A DNA stretch of 64,000 nucleotides, taken from the NCBI RefSeq assembly GCF_000970305.1, contig NZ_CP009517.1, forward strand, positions 2,666,001 to 2,730,000, in the 5' to 3' direction. The translations under genes and the position numbers were made by a program. This DNA comes from Methanosarcina barkeri 3 (GTDB lineage Archaea; Halobacteriota; Methanosarcinia; Methanosarcinales; Methanosarcinaceae). Position 1 is the stretch's first letter, and every line of letters begins with the position of its first letter. A model generated the notes under the pieces. That model did no database searches, was not told where the DNA came from, and worked only from the letters and a program-made list of their open reading frames with translations. Below are positions 148 through 42,047 of the stretch, piece by piece.

Positions 148-2280
148 ATGGAAAAAATACATATTACCTTAAGTAATCAGCAGCAATTGAGAAGAATTAT
201 CTCCATGCTGCTGACGGTGACAATAATTTTTTTATTGTTCCCGGTCAATGCGTATGCCTACGATTCTACAGTGGAAAACTGCACCAGCACTACGATCATC
301 AACTGCGCGTCAGAAAACGCATCCTATGCGGATGGGGAAGAAACAGGAGTATTGACCCGAACAACAGGAATATTGGTAGTAGCGCACGGCTCTCCGGAAG
401 ATAAATGGAACCAACCTGTACGGGATGCCGTAGAAGATATTGATTGCCCGTACCCGGTAGAATTGGGTTTCCTGGAACATGTTGAGGGAGAAGACATCGG
501 AACAGCAATTGCCAATCTGGAAAAGCAAGGTGTCGAACATATTATCACCGTGCCGATATTTGTGGCCTCGGCTTCGGATCATATTGAAGAAATCAAATAC
601 ATCTTGGGACTCCCCAGTTCCATTAAGGAAAAGGAAGCAACTGAGGCAGGGTTGAAAGTAATTTCTCACAATGCTGAGATTGAAATGACACCAGCCCTGG
701 ACGACCACCAATTGGTAGCGGAAATTCTGGATGACCGTATTGCAACGGTTAGCCAGCAGGCAGACAAGGAAATTGTAGTGTTGGCCGCTCACGGGACCTC
801 TGACGCGGCAGACCTGGCCGTTTGGAAAAAGAACCTGGCTTCTTTAGGGCAACAGCTCAAAGAGAATTACAAGTTCCTGAATGTTGATTATGGCTTTGTG
901 GCACTGGGCGAACCTAACATCAGGACGGTTGTAGAAGCCAAACAAAAGGAAAATCCCGGAGCTTCCATTATTGTTATGCCTGTGATGCTTTCCGAAGGCA
1001 CGTTCACAGGTACCAGGATTCCTGAAGTTCTAGACGGATTAACTTACTTATATCCGGCAGAAGGACAGCGTTCTTTACTGCCTCACGATGACATTTCTAA
1101 TTTGATCGTTGCCCGTGCCTATGATGCCATGGGAGTTTTTGCAGGAGGAAACGGAGCAGAGAATTCTCCTTATCAAATCGCAACAGCAGAGCAGCTTGAT
1201 CAGGTGCATAACTACCTGAATAAGGACTTTGTTTTGACGGCGGACATCGACCTCTCCGGCTACAAAAACTGGGAACCAATTGGTGCTTTCAAGCCTTTAT
1301 CTGAAAAACCGGAGGATGAAGAGACCCCGGATCCGGAAGTGGCTTTTACGGGAACCTTTGATGGTAATGGGCATACAATCTGCAATGTGGCCATTAATCA
1401 ACCTGAGGGCATGTCAGTAGGTTTGTTCGGATGCATTGTCGGAAAACAGAATAATCCCTGCTCTATATCCAACCTTAAGGTGAAATGCGCTAATGTGATT
1501 GGAAACTTTTGTGTCGGCGATGTCATTGGCTTTCAATATGGGAACTGCATCCTGGAAAACATAACTCTTACCGGCAATAATACGGCACGAGGTAATATCT
1601 ACGTAGGTGGTATTTTGGGTGGCAGCGATATGGGTAACGACTCTGCAGAACTGAAAGACTGCAATGCTGCAGCTGATATCGTGGTTTTGGGTGATTTTGG
1701 AAATTCGGCGGGTGTTTTAGGTGGCGCTCTGAATGCTTGCTCAGTAATCAATTGCACTGCAACAGGCACGGTAACCGGGGAAGGTGATGAATATTTTGCA
1801 CTGGGCAGCCTGATAGGCGGCGTGTTTGAGGGAGTTGCCGTTATAAACTGCCATGCTGATGATGTTTCTATCACTGCTTCGGGTGAAAACGATACCATGA
1901 TCGGTGGACTTCTGGGTTATGCGGGAACTTATGATGAGGATGCCCCTACACAGATAGCCGAATGCTCGACGAATGTTACTATGAAAGTGTCGGACAGCAC
2001 TGAACGCGTAGGTGGGTTGATAGGTGGCAGCTTTTATCATGATTTGTATGCTGATGCAAGACCTATACCTGCATCTTATGCGATATCCTGTTGTGCTACT
2101 TCAGGTAGTATCATCGGTGGTGGAAACGAAGTCGGAAGTATCGCTGGTTATGCTTACAATTCTACCGTGAAAAACTGTACCAGCACTATGACCATTAACT
2201 GTGTATCAGATCACGTACCTCAGGTAGGACTATATGAAAGTTCATTTGCTGATGGCAATGAAACAGAATCTGACTCTTAA
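148..2280 (+). CDS. Secreted CbiX-like chelatase domain fused to GLUG-type adhesin repeats
   Basis: 710 aa. Residues 1-37 form a signal peptide with a hydrophobic stretch ending at AYA. Residues 73-330 resemble the CbiX/CbiK cobaltochelatase fold duplicated in one chain: the motif VVAHGS (His80), VPIFVASASDH (His145) and a second LAAHGTSD (His215). Residues 331-710 are a GLUG-type region (PYQIATAEQL, DIDLSG, FDGNGHTI, then GGLLGYAG-like turns) typical of secreted adhesin-like proteins. A GAGGAG ribosome site lies about 9 nt before the ATG. Codon use looks less AT-rich than the flanking DNA, so transfer is possible. Family knowledge: CbiX inserts cobalt into sirohydrochlorin in the cytoplasm, so export is unexpected. 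Binding of a tetrapyrrole or metal at the surface is my inference. Catalysis is unproven. Confidence 0.75.
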   Translation: MEKIHITLSNQQQLRRIISMLLTVTIIFLLFPVNAYAYDSTVENCTSTTIINCASENASYADGEETGVLTRTTGILVVAHGSPEDKWNQPVRDAVEDIDCPYPVELGFLEHVEGEDIGTAIANLEKQGVEHIITVPIFVASASDHIEEIKYILGLPSSIKEKEATEAGLKVISHNAEIEMTPALDDHQLVAEILDDRIATVSQQADKEIVVLAAHGTSDAADLAVWKKNLASLGQQLKENYKFLNVDYGFVALGEPNIRTVVEAKQKENPGASIIVMPVMLSEGTFTGTRIPEVLDGLTYLYPAEGQRSLLPHDDISNLIVARAYDAMGVFAGGNGAENSPYQIATAEQLDQVHNYLNKDFVLTADIDLSGYKNWEPIGAFKPLSEKPEDEETPDPEVAFTGTFDGNGHTICNVAINQPEGMSVGLFGCIVGKQNNPCSISNLKVKCANVIGNFCVGDVIGFQYGNCILENITLTGNNTARGNIYVGGILGGSDMGNDSAELKDCNAAADIVVLGDFGNSAGVLGGALNACSVINCTATGTVTGEGDEYFALGSLIGGVFEGVAVINCHADDVSITASGENDTMIGGLLGYAGTYDEDAPTQIAECSTNVTMKVSDSTERVGGLIGGSFYHDLYADARPIPASYAISCCATSGSIIGGGNEVGSIAGYAYNSTVKNCTSTMTINCVSDHVPQVGLYESSFADGNETESDS

Positions 2281-2711: not shown

Positions 2712-2824
2712 GGGTTTACGCAGTTGGACTTAAAAACCAGCAGCATCAAACCAAACTGTATAAAATGTAGCTTTAATCTGCAATCTTTACCGTGATTGAT
2801 TTTGTTTTTTAAGTGCCTAAGTCC
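2712..2824. mobile_element. Degraded MITE-like inverted-repeat element
   Basis: 113 bp. The left end GGGTTTACGCAGTTGGACTT and the right end AAGTGCCTAAGTCC are imperfect inverted repeats. They match the termini of the better-preserved 133-bp element at 23948-24080 (ends GGACTTACGCA / TGCGTAAGTCC). No coding capacity. The left end is flanked by TA. Because the ends have diverged, this copy is probably old and immobile. Confidence 0.5.
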
Positions 2825-4376
2825 TGATAGTTAACAGAATTTATTAAACTCCTGGCGAAGTGTAAAAATTCATTTTGTAAATACGAATAAGGTACCATAT
2901 ATAGAAGAAAATTGATTATAAAGAATAAATTTGATAATAAAGAATAAAGTTAAATGGAAAGAATGAAGTTGATAATAGCAATAATAATTCATAATTAAGC
3001 ATAATTTTCGGATACCCAAAAATTATATATATCATCCAGTCTATTTCACATATGTAGTAAAGATTAGTAAGACAAAATATATTATGTCAATATAATAAGA
3101 ATATCAAAAAGTAGATAGAGCACTGAACACGCTGGAAAACAGGCCAAAAATCTATATTGCTCGTAAGTGAATTTTTAATGGATATTTTTGGAGACTGTTT
3201 TGACTGTAACCAAAGAACATCATTACAGAGTATTAAAGAACCTGGCGAGTTCAAGCTGAACATTACAGCCTATCTCTTGGAAAATGGAGGTGAAAATGAA
3301 AGTTATTGAAACGGAAAGAGATTAACTTATCTTTTTGTATGCCTCTTAAAAAACTGTCTGTAAAATATTGCATAAATGCATAAATGTGAAGTTAGTAGGT
3401 ATGGACCTTAAAAAGCGGTTAAAAGATGAGCTGTGAGATAAATATCCGAGAAGTGTGCCAATTTCTGTAAATCAAAATATGAGAAAATGCCATATACGAA
3501 GAACAGACCACAACCAGTACTCAAAAATTTGATTTATAATTTACAGCAAATTTATAACACTGGAATATTTTAGAATTTTACAAAAGTTTCTATGTATTCC
3601 GAAATCTCGGAATTGAGTATTCAACAGCTTAAATGAACGCTTGAAGGTCGCCAGGTGATAGAAAAATAGAGCACGTTGAAATGTAGCAGGTAACGGTTCC
3701 GTTCCATTCCTCCTGCTTTGATTCTTGCAAAATGCAGGTTTGAGATGTTTCGGAAAAACCTGGTTTCAACGTTTGGTTTATATGAACTCAAAAAAAAGAG
3801 AGTGCTATAAACAGACAAAAAGAATATAAAAAATCAATAAATGTAGACTGTCGAGTTCAATAGCCAAAGTTCCTCCTGAACAAATGCTGGCAAATAGACC
3901 ACACAATGAATCACTCCATAGGATCAAAAACTGGATAAATTTACTACATAGCTTTAGAACATTAGGGCAACAGGTTTCAAACATAGGCTTTTGAACTCTT
4001 CAGGACCAATGGAAAGGAAGAACAGGACAGTGATACCTCCTATAACTTGGACACACACTCCCGGAAAAAATCCGTTCTGTGTCTTCCTCCATTAGAACTT
4101 CTACACTACTTGATCTCCTAAACTGCCTTATTAAGTATAAACTCTAAATTTGTGCTCAAAAATGGTGATATAAAATGGAATACGAACTGGAAGAAGTTGA
4201 GAGAGACTATATCGAATTCAGAAAAGAAATAGGAGAAGATTAGAACGGAATAAGAAGTCATATCTGAAAATAAAGACGTGTTTACAAACGTATTGCTGAA
4301 AAACAGGACTTACTCCTTTTGAAAAACAATTATCTGACTGTTTCCTGATAATGTTTTAGAAATAATTAAAACATTA

Positions 4377-5527
4377 GAGGATTTCGATTAACCCTAGATT
4401 TTTTTCTTCACGGGAATTCCTTTAATTTCTCAATTTAATTCTCTACTAAATTCCTCATTTTATTTTTCCTTATCCTTAATTTTGATTTTAAAGATAGCTT
4501 CCGCTATCTTCAATACACTCCTTTTATTTTCAATGTCTTTAGTTGGTGTAGATTATAACAGAAAGCCGTATACAGCATCTTTAAATTTACTCTTTTAACC
4601 GTAGTAACAAGAACTTTTCCCGCTTTGAATGTCTCTTTCGTTACTGCGTATACTCGTTCTCCTGGAATTCTTTTTGAGCTAATTCTCTTGTTTCTTAATA
4701 TATCTTTTATTCCAAGAGCGTGTCCCCTGACTGCTCTTTTCATTGTTGCATCATAACCTTTCGATTTTGCTCCAAAGTATCCTCTGTCCCTATAAACCAC
4801 TTCATCCTCCTCTGACAAATCTACCTGAGAATCATGTACAGATGCAGTTGTTGTTTTGAATCTTCTTATCAACTCATAATCTCTATCTATTATGCTATGG
4901 AGCTTATATCCAAAGTGAGACTTTCCTCCCTTCTTTGTCCAGGTTCCATCTTTACTCCTTCTTGTTTTTGCCTCATTTCCTCGAGGTTTCTCAGCTTTTG
5001 CATGTCCTGGATCTGAATGGATAAAAGTGGCATCTTGAATCATTCCCTTTTTTATTTTTAGTCCAAGAGCGTCAAGCTGATTTTGCAACTGTTCCCATAT
5101 TTCTTCTTCTTTGCCATTTTTAATTATTCTCTCCCTGAATAACCATACAGTGGAACTATCCGGTATGTATTCTGGAAAACCAAGGAATTTTCTAAAAGAA
5201 ATTCGATCAATGCATTGCTTCTCAAGCTCAGGGTCAGAAAGACCATGCCATTGCTGTAGAACAAGCATTTTAAAAATCACAATGACATCAGTTTCAGGCC
5301 TGCCGCCTGAAACTGTTTTGTTAGAATACATTGACTCAAGAATAATACGAAAAGGTTTCCAGTCAATTAAGGAATCAATCTCAGCAAGTTTATCTCCAAC
5401 AGATTCAAGACGTTTGTATTCTTCTTTAAGAGCAAAATCAGTAAGGGTTTTCATGAATATAGATAAATGTGAACAGATTTAAAATAAACCAGGATTGAAA
5501 GCAAAGCATAGGTTTATCGAAGTTCTC
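4377..5527 (-). mobile_element. IS5-type insertion sequence, apparently complete
   Basis: About 1.15 kb enclosing one transposase gene on the minus strand. The imperfect terminal inverted repeats are 4377-4397 and 5507-5527, about 15 of 21 positions matching when one is reverse-complemented (core TTCGAT.AACC). Both ends are flanked by the direct repeat ATTA (4373-4376 and 5528-5531), which fits the 4-bp target duplication known for IS5-group elements. The intact transposase and target duplication suggest a fairly recent insertion into the decayed spacer. Confidence 0.75.
4510..5454 (-). CDS. IS5-family DDE transposase
   Basis: 314 aa, full length. The N-terminal part (about 30-110) is the helical DUF772-type region seen in IS5 transposases (RPETDVIVIFKMLVLQQW, FRKFLGFPEYIPDSSTVW). 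The catalytic core shows D141 in IQDATFIHSD, D223 in VVYRDRGYFG and E266 in PGERVYAVTKETFK, consistent with a DDE triad. The gene fills most of the insertion sequence. No frameshift or stop is seen, so the protein could be active. It would cut and rejoin the element's own inverted repeats. Confidence 0.9.
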   Translation of the reverse strand: MKTLTDFALKEEYKRLESVGDKLAEIDSLIDWKPFRIILESMYSNKTVSGGRPETDVIVIFKMLVLQQWHGLSDPELEKQCIDRISFRKFLGFPEYIPDSSTVWLFRERIIKNGKEEEIWEQLQNQLDALGLKIKKGMIQDATFIHSDPGHAKAEKPRGNEAKTRRSKDGTWTKKGGKSHFGYKLHSIIDRDYELIRRFKTTTASVHDSQVDLSEEDEVVYRDRGYFGAKSKGYDATMKRAVRGHALGIKDILRNKRISSKRIPGERVYAVTKETFKAGKVLVTTVKRVNLKMLYTAFCYNLHQLKTLKIKGVY

Positions 5528-5588: not shown

Positions 5589-5886
5589 CTTTAATTCAAC
5601 TAATTACCCTTTAATTCAACTAATTACCTTTTGTTTAAATAATTCCCTTTATTTCAACTAATTATCCCTTGATTCGGCTAATTTCCTTTAGTTCAACTAA
5701 TTGTACTCTAGTTCAACTAATTGTTCTTTAGTTCAACTGATTATCCTTTGGTTTGGCTAATTTCCTTTAGTTCAACTAATTGTCCTTTAGTTCAACTAAT
5801 TTATCTTTGTTCAACTAATTTATCTTTGTTCAACTAATTTATCTTTGTTCAACTAATTTATCTTTGTTCAACTAATTTATCTTTGT
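5589..5886. repeat. Tandem repeat array, units of 19-20 bp
   Basis: About 15 units built on TTCAACTAATT. The left part uses variants of TTTAGTTCAACTAATTGTCC. The right end (about 5804-5886) is a nearly perfect 19-bp unit TTTGTTCAACTAATTTATC. No start codons or coding frame. It lies between the insertion sequence and the metalloregulator gene. Confidence 0.9.
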
Positions 5887-6191: not shown

Positions 6192-6213
6192 ACGCAAAAA
6201 GGGTTTGAGTTTT

Positions 6214-6696
6214 ATGACAACGGAAAGAGATGAAGATTACCTGAAGATTATCGCTTCAATTGTTGAAGAAAAAGGATATGCCAAAGTTAAAGATGTAGCT
6301 AAAGAGCTGGAACTCGGCCCATCGACTGTAACTGGCATGTTCAAAAAACTCGACAAGGAAGGTTACATAAACTATGAAAAATATGGAGGGGTAACCCTCA
6401 CAGAAAAGGGAACCGAAATCGCACATAAGACTAAAGAGACATACGGCATGCTCAAAGAATTTCTCATGCATCTTGGGGTTAGTGAGACAATTGCAGAGGA
6501 AGATGCCTGTAAGATTGAGCATATCCTGAATCCAAAAACTGCAGAAACATTTAAAAAATTTGTAGAATTCACAGCTCAAAAAGAAGAGCCAAAAATCTGT
6601 ATAGAACATTTCAGGCATTTCGTTAAAACAGGAGAATATGTTCACTGCTCCCCAGAAACAAGAGATAAATGCCCTGTTCACGGAAAAAAGAAATAA
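6214..6696 (+). CDS. DtxR/MntR-family metal-dependent transcriptional regulator
   Basis: 160 aa from the ATG at 6214. An upstream in-frame TTG at 6205 sits directly on the GGG ribosome site and is unlikely. Residues 1-65 are a winged helix (VKDVAKELELGPSTVTGMFKKLDKEGYI). The dimer and metal region follows: D8, and the C99-E102-H103 cluster (DACKIEHIL) aligns with the DtxR/MntR metal ligands. The C-terminal tail adds a Cys/His cluster (CIEHFRHF, HCSPETRDKCPVH) that could bind a further metal. In this family Fe2+ or Mn2+ binding drives operator binding and represses metal uptake genes. Which metal applies here is unknown. Confidence 0.85.
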   Translation: MTTERDEDYLKIIASIVEEKGYAKVKDVAKELELGPSTVTGMFKKLDKEGYINYEKYGGVTLTEKGTEIAHKTKETYGMLKEFLMHLGVSETIAEEDACKIEHILNPKTAETFKKFVEFTAQKEEPKICIEHFRHFVKTGEYVHCSPETRDKCPVHGKKK

Positions 6697-6939: not shown

Positions 6940-7289
6940 TATGAAATGGCAGAATATTAATATTACTTTATTAATATGACCTTTCAAGTTTTAAATCCAG
7001 ATCTTTCAGGTTCCAATAGAATTAATACCTGGTAATTAATCTGAATTTTAAATCCCTGGTAAAAAATCTGTATTTTATTTACTCCTCAAGCTATGATTCT
7101 AACTTTCTAATTATCGTTAATTTGTAAATCTCATTAAACCGTGAATGCTATTAATAAAACAGCTAATTTATGATCGCCATGACAAACACACCAAGGCTTA
7201 TCGCATGGGAACTGACTGCAGGGTGCAACCTGAACTGCATACACTGCAGGGGAACTTCCACCTCCTCCGTTCCAGCAGGTGAACTGGTT
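6940..7289 (+). repeat. Duplicated copy of the ahbD upstream region and 5' coding end
   Basis: This stretch matches 10433-10730 over most of its length, including the identical block AATATTAATATTACTTTATT, the block TCGTTAATTTGTAAATCTCA and the first 39 codons of ahbD with a few substitutions. The middle of the spacer differs, so this copy is about 50 bp longer. The match stops abruptly at 7289. Confidence 0.85.
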
Positions 7290-10614: not shown

Positions 10615-12224
<1,610 letters not shown>

Positions 12225-12228
12225 AATT

Positions 12229-12687
12229 ATGGATAAAACGGATGTAAAACTGCTAAAACTCGTGCAGGACGGAATTCCTATCACTCATTCCCCTTTCAAA
12301 GAGTTTGCTTCTGAACTTGGAATCAGTGAACAGGAGGTTGTAGACAGGCTTAAAAATCTCCAGAAAGCTGGGAAGATCCGCCGCTTTGCGGCTTCAATAG
12401 GACACAGAGCCATAGGCATAAAAGCCAATGCAATGTGTGTCTGGAATGTTCCCGATGAGCAGATCGAAACGGTAGGGAATATCATGGCTGAATTTCCCGA
12501 AGTTACGCACTGTTATGAACGCCCCCGCTATCCTGACTGGCAGTATAATCTGTTTACAATGGTCCATTCCTATAACCCCGAAGACTGCGAAAAAGTAGCT
12601 GAGAAGATTTCGGAAGCTACAGGAATTAAAGACTACACCCTTTTCTTCAGTGAAAAAGAGTTCAAGAAAACAGGAGTCAGGCTTTAA
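12229..12687 (+). CDS. ahbB: AhbB, siroheme decarboxylase subunit
   Basis: 152 aa from ATG 12229, with AGGTGA 5 nt upstream; an in-frame TTG at 12211 lacks a ribosome site. It is an AsnC/Lrp-like paralogue of AhbA: helix-turn-helix about 3-55 (VKLLKLVQDGIPITHSPFKE) and a ligand-binding part with RRFAASIGHRAIG and EVTHCYERPRYPDW. The conserved His and Arg residues here are the ones implicated in substrate binding in AhbB proteins. Separated from ahbA by 4 nt, so the two subunits are translated together. Confidence 0.87.
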   Translation: MDKTDVKLLKLVQDGIPITHSPFKEFASELGISEQEVVDRLKNLQKAGKIRRFAASIGHRAIGIKANAMCVWNVPDEQIETVGNIMAEFPEVTHCYERPRYPDWQYNLFTMVHSYNPEDCEKVAEKISEATGIKDYTLFFSEKEFKKTGVRL

Positions 12688-39794: not shown

Positions 39795-42047
39795 ATGAAA
39801 AAAAATTTGAAAACAAAAAACAGTTTAAATGTAAGGAAAAAAGCAGCAATCCTCAGTGGATTTCTGGTTCTACTTATGATTATAGGCTCCTCGATAGCGA
39901 TAGCTGATACGAACTCTTCGGACAATAATAAAGCCTTAAAGGTTGGACTTGCACCAATAAACCCCGATTTTGTAAAGTATCAGCAAGAAAAAATTTCCAA
40001 TCAGCTATCTTTTGAGGGACATAAAGCTGGTTTAATCCCCTCAATTGTGGATCTTAGTCATCTGGGCAGTGTTTCTAGCAGAATAGCATCTTATCAATCA
40101 AAATATGATCTGCGGAGCCTGAACAAAGTAACTTCTGTGAAAGATCAGGGTAATGCAGGATCTTGTTGGGCATTTGCAACCTATGGGTCTTTGGAATCAT
40201 ATTTACTGCCTGGAGAAAATTGGGATTTTTCAGAAAATAATCTTAAAAACATGCTTTCCAATTCTGCGCCAGAAGGTTTTGATTTTCGAGAGGGAGGAAC
40301 TTCAGGTATGTCAACTGCCTACCTAGCCCGTTGGAGTGGGCCAGTGAAGGAAAGTGATGACCCTTATAGTGATTCGTCAACATATTCATCAAATGAACTT
40401 GGACTTCCTGTATATAAACATGTACAAAATGTTTTATTCCTTCCAGGCAGACAAGGATCTCTGGACAACAATGAAATAAAATCTGCAATTATAAAATATG
40501 GAGCAGTCTCTACAGGCTTATACTCCGGTGGTAACAACTTTTACAATTATTATTCTGCTAGTAAACATAGTTTTTACTATAATGGATCTTCGTCCTCTGA
40601 CCATGGAGTGGACATTGTAGGCTGGGATGACTCGTACAGTAAAAACAATTTTACTAAAATCCCGCCCGGAAATGGAGCTTTTATTGTGAAAAATAGTTGG
40701 AGTAAAGATTTTGGTGAGAATGGATACTTCTATGTTTCCTATTATGACTCAAATATAGGCGCCGATAATACTATCTTCACAGCTGAAAACACTGATAATT
40801 ATAAAAATATATATCAGTATGATCCATTCGGATGGACTACTACTATGGGATATGGCGGATCCACTGGCTGGTCTGCAAACATCTTTACTGCAAAATCAAG
40901 TGAGACTCTTAAAGCTGTAAGTTTCTATACTACGGATTCAAACTGCAACTATGAAATTCATATATATACTAACATATCGTCCAGTCCTATAAATCAAGCC
41001 GGTCCGGTTATTTCCCAGAGTGGGAAAAGTTCCTATGCAGGCTATCATACGATACCTCTGAACTCCGGAGTACAGCTCAAAGCCGGTCAAAAGTTCTCAG
41101 TTGTCCTGAAGCTTAAGACCACAGGATATGGTTACCCGATTGCCATAGAATACCCGTACCCAAACTACAGTAGTAAAGCAACAGCAAATGCAGGAGAGAG
41201 TTTCGTCAGTTCTGACGGAAATGACTGGACTGACATAACAAAATATTACTCAAATACGAATGTATGCATCAAGGCCTTCACCTCAACAGGAAGTGCATCT
41301 CCTGTAGCAGACTTTTCTGCGAAACCTACTTCTGGAAATACGCCATTAAGTGTCACTTTTACTGACAAAAGTACTGGTTCACCTACCAGTTGGACGTGGA
41401 ACTTTGGAGATGGGACTTCCTCAACAACTAAGAGCCCTGTACACACATACAGTAAAGCAGGAAAATATACTGTAAGCTTAACAGTAAAGAATAACAAAGG
41501 CAGTAACACTAAAACAATAGGTAATTATATAAATGTAGCAGAAGCCCCAATAAAGCCAGTTGCTGTTTTTTCTGCAACGCCGACCTCAGGAAAAGCACCA
41601 GTAAATGTCGCTTTTACTGACAAAAGCACAGGAACGCCGACGAAGTGGAAATGGACTTTTGGGGATGGAACTACTTCAGTCCAGCAGAATCCGGTTCATA
41701 AGTATTCAAAAGCAGGAAATTATACTGTGGCTCTTACGGTAGTCAATGCCAAAGGCAGTAGCACACTAACAAAAGCAAATTATATAAAAGTGATAACAAA
41801 GCCTGTTGCTGCCTTCTCTGCATCTCCAACCTCAGGAAAAGCTCCATTAAACGTTAAATTCACTGACAAAAGCACAGGAATACCAACGAAGTGGCAATGG
41901 AATTTTGGAGATGGAACAACTTCAACCAAGCAGAATATAACGCATAAGTATTCAAAAGCAGGAACATATACTGTTAAGTTAACAGTAACAAATGTTGCTG
42001 GCAGTAACACTAAAACAATTTCTGGATATGTTACAGTGAAAAAATGA
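39795..42047 (+). CDS. Secreted papain-like (C1A) peptidase with lectin-like and three PKD domains
   Basis: 750 aa. N-terminal signal or anchor 16-37. The catalytic domain spans about 103-330: C124 in KDQGNAGSCWAFATYG, H270 in SSDHGVDIVGWDD and N300 in FIVKNSWSKDFGENGYFYVSYYD are the papain Cys-His-Asn set, with Q118 for the oxyanion hole. Residues 340-495 (YDPFGWTTTMGYGGSTGWSA, YEIHIYTN, LKAGQKFSVVLKL) resemble the beta-sandwich lectin-like domain that follows many archaeal and bacterial C1A peptidases. Three PKD domains fill 502-750. Likely a cell-surface protease; residues 38-100 may be a propeptide. Confidence 0.9.
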   Translation: MKKNLKTKNSLNVRKKAAILSGFLVLLMIIGSSIAIADTNSSDNNKALKVGLAPINPDFVKYQQEKISNQLSFEGHKAGLIPSIVDLSHLGSVSSRIASYQSKYDLRSLNKVTSVKDQGNAGSCWAFATYGSLESYLLPGENWDFSENNLKNMLSNSAPEGFDFREGGTSGMSTAYLARWSGPVKESDDPYSDSSTYSSNELGLPVYKHVQNVLFLPGRQGSLDNNEIKSAIIKYGAVSTGLYSGGNNFYNYYSASKHSFYYNGSSSSDHGVDIVGWDDSYSKNNFTKIPPGNGAFIVKNSWSKDFGENGYFYVSYYDSNIGADNTIFTAENTDNYKNIYQYDPFGWTTTMGYGGSTGWSANIFTAKSSETLKAVSFYTTDSNCNYEIHIYTNISSSPINQAGPVISQSGKSSYAGYHTIPLNSGVQLKAGQKFSVVLKLKTTGYGYPIAIEYPYPNYSSKATANAGESFVSSDGNDWTDITKYYSNTNVCIKAFTSTGSASPVADFSAKPTSGNTPLSVTFTDKSTGSPTSWTWNFGDGTSSTTKSPVHTYSKAGKYTVSLTVKNNKGSNTKTIGNYINVAEAPIKPVAVFSATPTSGKAPVNVAFTDKSTGTPTKWKWTFGDGTTSVQQNPVHKYSKAGNYTVALTVVNAKGSSTLTKANYIKVITKPVAAFSASPTSGKAPLNVKFTDKSTGIPTKWQWNFGDGTTSTKQNITHKYSKAGTYTVKLTVTNVAGSNTKTISGYVTVKK

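Follow-up and report, generated by a model that had tools for sequence, protein, structure and literature searches.

An exported CbiX-type chelatase on a GLUG scaffold at the feo locus of Methanosarcina barkeri 3, a candidate for iron release from haem-like molecules

The characterised CbiX, SirB and CfbA enzymes insert metal, and this forward direction is the known chemistry of their family. SirB, or CbiX(L), of B. subtilis (5zt7–5zta) has two CbiX lobes in one chain with a His/Glu/His site in the first, as does the protein encoded at 148–2280 of the 64,000-nucleotide stretch of Methanosarcina barkeri 3 DNA analysed here (hereafter the window). Unlike that protein, SirB is cytosolic, serves sirohaem and cobalamin synthesis, and has no signal peptide, GLUG or FmdE region. 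The archaeal sirohydrochlorin nickelochelatase CfbA, or CbiX(S), differs in being a cytosolic, single-lobed homodimer. Desulfovibrio CbiK (2xvx) is, like the window protein, an exported class II chelatase, in this case periplasmic, but it is bacterial and lacks a GLUG/FmdE scaffold.

Oxygen-dependent haem oxygenases are unusable for strict anaerobes. In B. fragilis, use of haem iron requires FeoAB together with the CobN-like BtuS1/2, the removal of the iron taking place in the periplasm (PMC6460266). The haem dechelatase HmuS is thought to hand Fe(II) to FeoB, and the 2025 HmuS study describes how archaea use their HmuS homologues as unclear (PMC12583661). For M. barkeri, salvage of metalloporphyrins has been suggested as a task of CobN-like BtuS proteins (PMC10846266). 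Class II chelatases that are exported are already known, as are, separately, haem dechelatases that act with Feo, and iron acquisition by methanogens and their relatives is poorly known. Our searches of the open-access literature (CbiX/GLUG, FmdE/FeoB and DtxR/FeoB with Methanosarcina) returned no description of the window protein, nor of an exported CbiX pair on a FmdE/GLUG scaffold at archaeal feo loci. To our knowledge, the role discussed below is the first iron-extracting one proposed for the CbiX family. An exported class II chelatase at feo genes makes archaeal anaerobic haem-iron salvage testable in the genetically tractable M. acetivorans.

The reading frame starts with ATG, is open throughout and occurs once in the 4.56-Mb genome, which is a single contig (Table 1). 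Its N-terminus has the features of a Sec signal peptide, with Arg15-Arg16, a stretch at residues 17–33 whose mean hydropathy of 2.66 is the highest in the protein, and an AYA/YD site that follows residue 37. The N-terminal sequences of relatives from other genera differ, yet a hydrophobic start segment is likewise present, in keeping with the signal peptide claimed earlier from the DNA letters alone. We saw no C-terminal membrane anchor in the protein, so its retention at the surface is only putative. Pfam CbiX matches two stretches (E 2.6e-23; 82.8 bits against a curated cut-off of 22), as expected from the two half-domains originally described; CbiK also matches (E 3.5e-6). The Glug profile covers residues about 331–685 (E 7e-15; 54.8 bits, cut-off 20.5), in agreement with the roughly 370 residues of GLUG-like repeats reported before, and this is the sole GLUG protein found in the genome.

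Table 1. Features of the window discussed in the text (positions count from the first letter of the window).
Feature	Position	Strand	Basis
Exported CbiX-type chelatase–GLUG protein, 710 aa	148..2280	+	ORF, Pfam, orthologs, dN/dS <1
Predicted Sec signal peptide, residues 1–37 (NAYA/YDS)	148..258	+	hydropathy and sequence; inferred
Degenerate copy of GLUG-domain end, residues 38–68	259..351	+	79% DNA identity, first 21 codons vs C-terminal copy
Chelatase lobe 1, residues 73–199: His80 (385–387), Glu110 (475–477), His145 (580–582)	364..744	+	Pfam/NCBIfam, conservation
Chelatase lobe 2, residues about 208–325: His215; second His replaced (SEGTF)	769..1122	+	second CbiX stretch, CfbA alignment
GLUG domain, predicted right-handed beta-helix	1138..2202	+	Pfam Glug, model, IgA1 protease match
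Junction of 574-codon in-frame deletion vs M. spelaei	1202..1207	+	copy A switches to copy B
Second copy of 28-bp palindrome	3000..3027	.	2 mismatches; conserved in L009, L010, L040, L051
DtxR/MntR-family metalloregulator, candidate locus regulator	6205..6696	+	Fe_dep_repress 9e-19, Fe_dep_repr_C 2.8e-13
Haem genes: radical SAM; NirDL/Ahb-like pair; SirC-like	10615; 11661..12687; 12800		
Haem genes: HemA; HemB; HemL-type aminotransferase; HemC	13618; 15288; 16746; 18069		

Across six divergent exported chelatase domains, 40–55% identical to that of the window, His80, His145, His187, His215 and His313 do not vary, and position 110 is Glu or Asp. The three histidines singled out in the original prediction (80, 145 and 215) are thus all present and conserved. 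By position, we take His80, Glu110 and His145 to correspond to His10, Glu43 and His76 of the SirB metal site. An AlphaFold model built from four sequences, drawn only from the window and loci L009 and L010, reached pLDDT 65 and pTM 0.55, with a good first lobe and a poor end of the second. The best structural match of this low-confidence model is SirB (Z 12.8, with 22% identity and an rmsd of 6.5 over 215 residues), followed by CfbA (Z 12.7 over 117 residues, rmsd 4.0) and then ferrochelatases, and periplasmic CbiK (2xvx) is also among the matches (Z 10.0). The superposition envisaged at the outset placed SirB and CfbA first, with CbiK lower, and the matches support a chelatase fold for the model rather than the geometry of its metal site.

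By profile, the protein belongs to the CbiX (PF01903) class II chelatase superfamily, chelatase activity itself being predicted. CfbA is its closest family by profile score, but it reaches 79.2 bits against the CfbA nickelochelatase equivalog NF033198, below the cut-off of 120. Pfam finds no CobN-Mg_chel domain (PF02514) in the protein; the three matches in the genome are located elsewhere. It is neither a CfbA equivalog nor a HmuS/CobN protein, and it may work like HmuS. The ordinary CfbA-type gene of the genome is a separate one (C1:3773334). That the window gene is a misplaced CfbA paralogue is ruled out by the missed CfbA cut-off and because several families conserve the exported form.

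The GLUG domain was modelled as an all-beta solenoid (pLDDT 70, pTM 0.75). The six structures that match it best are all beta-helices, each from an IgA1 protease or a putative one (Z 24.0–27.6), after which scores drop to a Z of about 16. These matches came from the structural aligner; Foldseek alone gave no significant match to the model. The window protein shares the GLUG beta-helix of the IgA1 protease stalk (Z 27.6) and lacks the protease, the helix bearing a chelatase instead. GLUG-repeat proteins have also been reported in Methanimicrococcus (PMC9723798). The adhesin label given to these repeats found no sequence support. GLUG is a beta-helix scaffold, which on its own does not imply adhesion, and in other genera it is swapped for FmdE-like or other domains: Pfam FmdE matched eight of eight members from those genera, sometimes alongside further N- or C-terminal regions. 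A search for the same domain order succeeded in M. spelaei (94–95% identical), while most exported relatives carry the FmdE-like domain and not GLUG. The FmdE-like domain had no match among PDB sequences. By these comparisons, the invariable part of the exported family is signal peptide plus chelatase, and the scaffold differs. Elsewhere in the M. barkeri genome, a stand-alone FmdE-like gene (L107:11370-11954) adjoins a gene for an exported, C-terminally anchored CobN-like protein of 1460 aa (L107:6433-10815; both near C1 2774433-2779954), so that FmdE is found with exported chelatases of both class I and class II.

Within Methanosarcina the protein is modular. The M. spelaei form has 1,284 residues in the order chelatase, GLUG, extra domain, GLUG; the form encoded by a MAG has two chelatases in 1,650 residues; and in G075, presumably M. 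acetivorans, a single frame of 4,226 residues contains 7 CbiX and 26 Glug stretches. Residues 38–68 of the window protein look like a trace of a tandem module array such as these multi-module relatives have. M. spelaei is the closest named relative at the locus, with the same order and 94–96% DNA identity, and the window gene equals its gene minus exactly 574 codons, in frame, the extra domain included; the junction indicates that the deletion arose by recombination between two GLUG module starts. The extra domain of the long relatives matches ZinT weakly in one of four sequences (E 0.019, far below the curated cut-off) and has no PDB match. In comparison with M. spelaei, dN/dS ranges from 0.23 (NG86) to 0.40 (YN00) in the chelatase and from 0.23 to 0.38 in GLUG, while the MAG copy gives 0.16 to 0.21; by these ratios, all below 1, the gene is under purifying selection.

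Three features lay outside the original prediction: the GLUG-end copy at residues 38–58, the DtxR-family regulator and, just beyond the window edge, feoA, feoB and feoC immediately upstream of the chelatase gene. Bacteroides HmuS/BtuS have the same proposed task in an anaerobe, which is to supply FeoB by taking iron out of haem before it enters the cytoplasm. They are of an unrelated, large class I fold (CobN-like) and lie in a haem-uptake operon with an outer-membrane receptor, the feo genes being elsewhere in the genome, whereas the window protein sits in the feo locus itself. The M. acetivorans order is feoA, feoA, feoB, a small gene, feoC, an ABC half-transporter pair, an LCM-type methyltransferase, the chelatase and dtxR, and from feoB onward that of M. 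spelaei is the same. The ABC-ABC-LCM genes present in these relatives are absent from the window genome's locus. The dtxR-family gene is conserved in the relatives' locus, and the regulator scores nearest to MntR models. In G082, a member of the genus without the chelatase, feoAA-feoB-feoC-dtxR is retained and feoC and dtxR are adjacent. At locus L009 the half-transporter pair lies between feoC and the methyltransferase (L009:2177-5711); among single half-transporters in the PDB, its first member is nearest to YbtP and IrtA (6p6i_A, E 1.3e-91; 7wiu_A, 8.8e-86), and the second is near TM_0288 and YbtQ.

Linkage to Feo extends well beyond the genus. With genus and family assignments used as labels of relatedness, a profile search (E up to 1e-25) of 393 genomes of the phylum Halobacteriota detected the exported form in 28, which belong to seven families. 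Of the 24 genomes examined with FeoB_C, 15 have FeoB no more than 10 kb from the exported chelatase, where 0.36 would be expected (P 3e-22), and by genus this holds for 10 of 13 (P 1e-14). These P values are only indicative, since they come from a model in which placement is random and genomes are independent; the other nine of the 24 genomes have no FeoB within that distance. Among cytosolic-length CbiX genes of the same genomes, counted from printed gene positions, FeoB is as close in just 1 of 26 (Fisher P 8e-6). The conserved linkage exceeds chance, and the tie to iron uptake is well supported. The exception is genus g11, which has ZnuABC instead of Feo, as the preceding gene in two loci. 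There the chelatase gene is followed by an LCM gene and a small exported protein, with an exported CobN near in one locus. The g11 exported protein (about 240 aa, VPSLPLILEGSV...; L042, L043, L044, L046 and L047) has no Pfam or NCBIfam match where tested, and the LCM-type methyltransferase is intact in four loci and present only as fragments in L047. FeoA proteins of about 235 aa are encoded beside exported chelatases at L050:1942-2649, where the protein has three FeoA stretches, and, as its relatives, at L083, L086, L088-L090, L093 and L099.

A perfect 28-bp palindrome, TATAATTTTC-N8-GAAAATTATA, lies outside the window at C1:2665714-2665741, about 410 bp before the chelatase start codon, and its right arm runs into a TATA-like sequence. 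With up to 2 mismatches allowed, the copy downstream of the chelatase gene (Table 1) is the only other site in the whole genome. Searched with a fixed spacer at the same tolerance, 31 Methanosarcina genomes contain six sites, and the reversed control none; five of the six are in chelatase or chelatase-remnant loci, and the sixth is ~70 bp before feoA in G082. A copy with 4 mismatches and a near-identical spacer lies before feoA of the window genome, and a weaker one precedes feoA in G075 too. We infer that this palindrome, common to the feo and chelatase transcription units, is a shared operator, and its position suggests binding by the DtxR-family protein, which would give a candidate DtxR-family regulon in Methanosarcina.

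The operator copy within the window is contained in a stretch of about 1.6 kb (2756–4384) with no ORF above 65 aa. Identity over this stretch is 95.6% with M. spelaei and about 80% with G078, and the stretch could hold a non-coding RNA; Rfam found no match in it and just one tRNA in the window. A 22-residue ORF, MEYELEEVERDYIEFRKEIGED (4175–4243, +), begins about 1.15 kb after the operator copy, and in four Methanosarcina genomes its peptide agrees up to the last residue despite DNA differences. It is possibly a metal-regulated small protein.

Taken with the feo neighbourhood, the protein is likely to belong to a locus for metal uptake, chiefly of iron. Export, the chelatase fold and the conserved metal-site residues make handling of a metal or tetrapyrrole outside the cell reasonable, and the proximity to feo across many archaea, together with the shared DNA switch here, suggests that the cells strip iron from external haem-like molecules. 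By analogy with Bacteroides HmuS/BtuS, the explanation we favour is that the protein is an exported demetallase, a class II counterpart of those enzymes, which would supply FeoB by releasing Fe(II) from haem or sirohaem; we regard this reading as evenly balanced between right and wrong. Against it count the metal-inserting direction of the characterised enzymes, ZnuABC as the neighbour in genus g11, the nine genomes with no FeoB inside 10 kb, the loss of ABC-ABC-LCM from the window genome and the poor second lobe of the model. The chelatase–GLUG protein would be secreted by Sec, the locus probably being under DtxR-family control and putatively iron-regulated, and the GLUG beta-helix would hold the two-lobed chelatase outside the membrane. 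Haem or sirohaem from lysed cells would be bound in the cleft between the lobes, the chelatase would run in reverse, with the His80/Glu110/His145 site taking Fe(II) out, and FeoB would import the released ion. The capture of metal or tetrapyrroles at the surface, as first suggested, stands as far as export, fold and site residues go; its genomic link is now to FeoABC, a DtxR-family regulator and a shared operator, not to haem synthesis. Cobalt or a corrinoid as the target, also raised then, gained no specific support.

The two lobes might instead be a non-catalytic surface binder that concentrates Fe(II) or another divalent metal near FeoB or ZnuABC, with no tetrapyrrole involved. The linkage to Feo and ZnuABC alike and the conserved metal-site residues would agree with such a role, and the several chelatase modules of the 4,226-residue chain would suit a sponge. 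However, the entire two-lobed domain is 40–43% identical between genera, beyond the needs of a few metal ligands, and we consider this unlikely. We find it decidedly improbable that the protein works as a forward chelatase outside the cell, inserting Fe, Co or Ni into a tetrapyrrole or re-metallating a damaged one for cofactor supply or detoxification. Tetrapyrrole synthesis is cytosolic, the genome has its separate CfbA-type gene, and the neighbours are metal importers with no synthesis genes among them, even though insertion is what the family is known for and a forward role has been proposed for the exported CbiK of Desulfovibrio, one of the structural matches.

The window gene could also be a shrinking relic of a larger surface protein whose ancestral job is gone. 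It has lost 574 codons with the extra domain, and the ABC-ABC-LCM genes are missing; moreover, no more than 5 of 31 Methanosarcina genomes retain any part of the gene, and G078 has a 54-residue remnant. Against this, the frame is intact, dN/dS remains low, and the operator and metal-site residues are retained, which leaves us strongly doubtful of a relic. Acquisition of zinc (or manganese), in which the chelatase would take Zn from complexes for a ZnuA-type receptor and the Feo link would reflect general metal limitation, draws on the adjoining ZnuABC of genus g11, the weak ZinT-like match and the MntR-like scores of the regulator, but most genera have Feo and not Znu as neighbour and the ZinT match is far under its cut-off, making zinc very improbable. 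More far-fetched still is a porphyrin acting outside the cell as an archaeal metallophore in Methanosarcina and its relatives, with multi-module surface chelatases loading and unloading the tetrapyrrole carrier, the LCM methyltransferase perhaps tailoring it, the YbtPQ/IrtAB-like ABC pair perhaps importing it and FeoB taking the freed iron.

The haem cluster (Table 1) lies 8 kb away and outside the chelatase transcription unit, as its reported lack of operon linkage implied. It is ruled out as the main clue to function, being beyond a transposase-like ORF, repeats and the regulator. The repeats comprise an AT-rich tandem array at 5589–5878 (about 15 copies of a 19-bp unit) between the transposase-like ORF (4510–5454, −) and dtxR. 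A 39-residue fragment at 7170–7286 shares 97% identity with the beginning of the radical SAM protein of haem-synthesis type encoded at 10615 and, from this identity, is a duplicated remnant of it. Farther along the window, 22132–46148 encodes seven PKD-domain surface proteins, several with beta-propellers, and one of the PKD surface proteins (39795–42047) also has a papain-like protease and a lectin-like domain.
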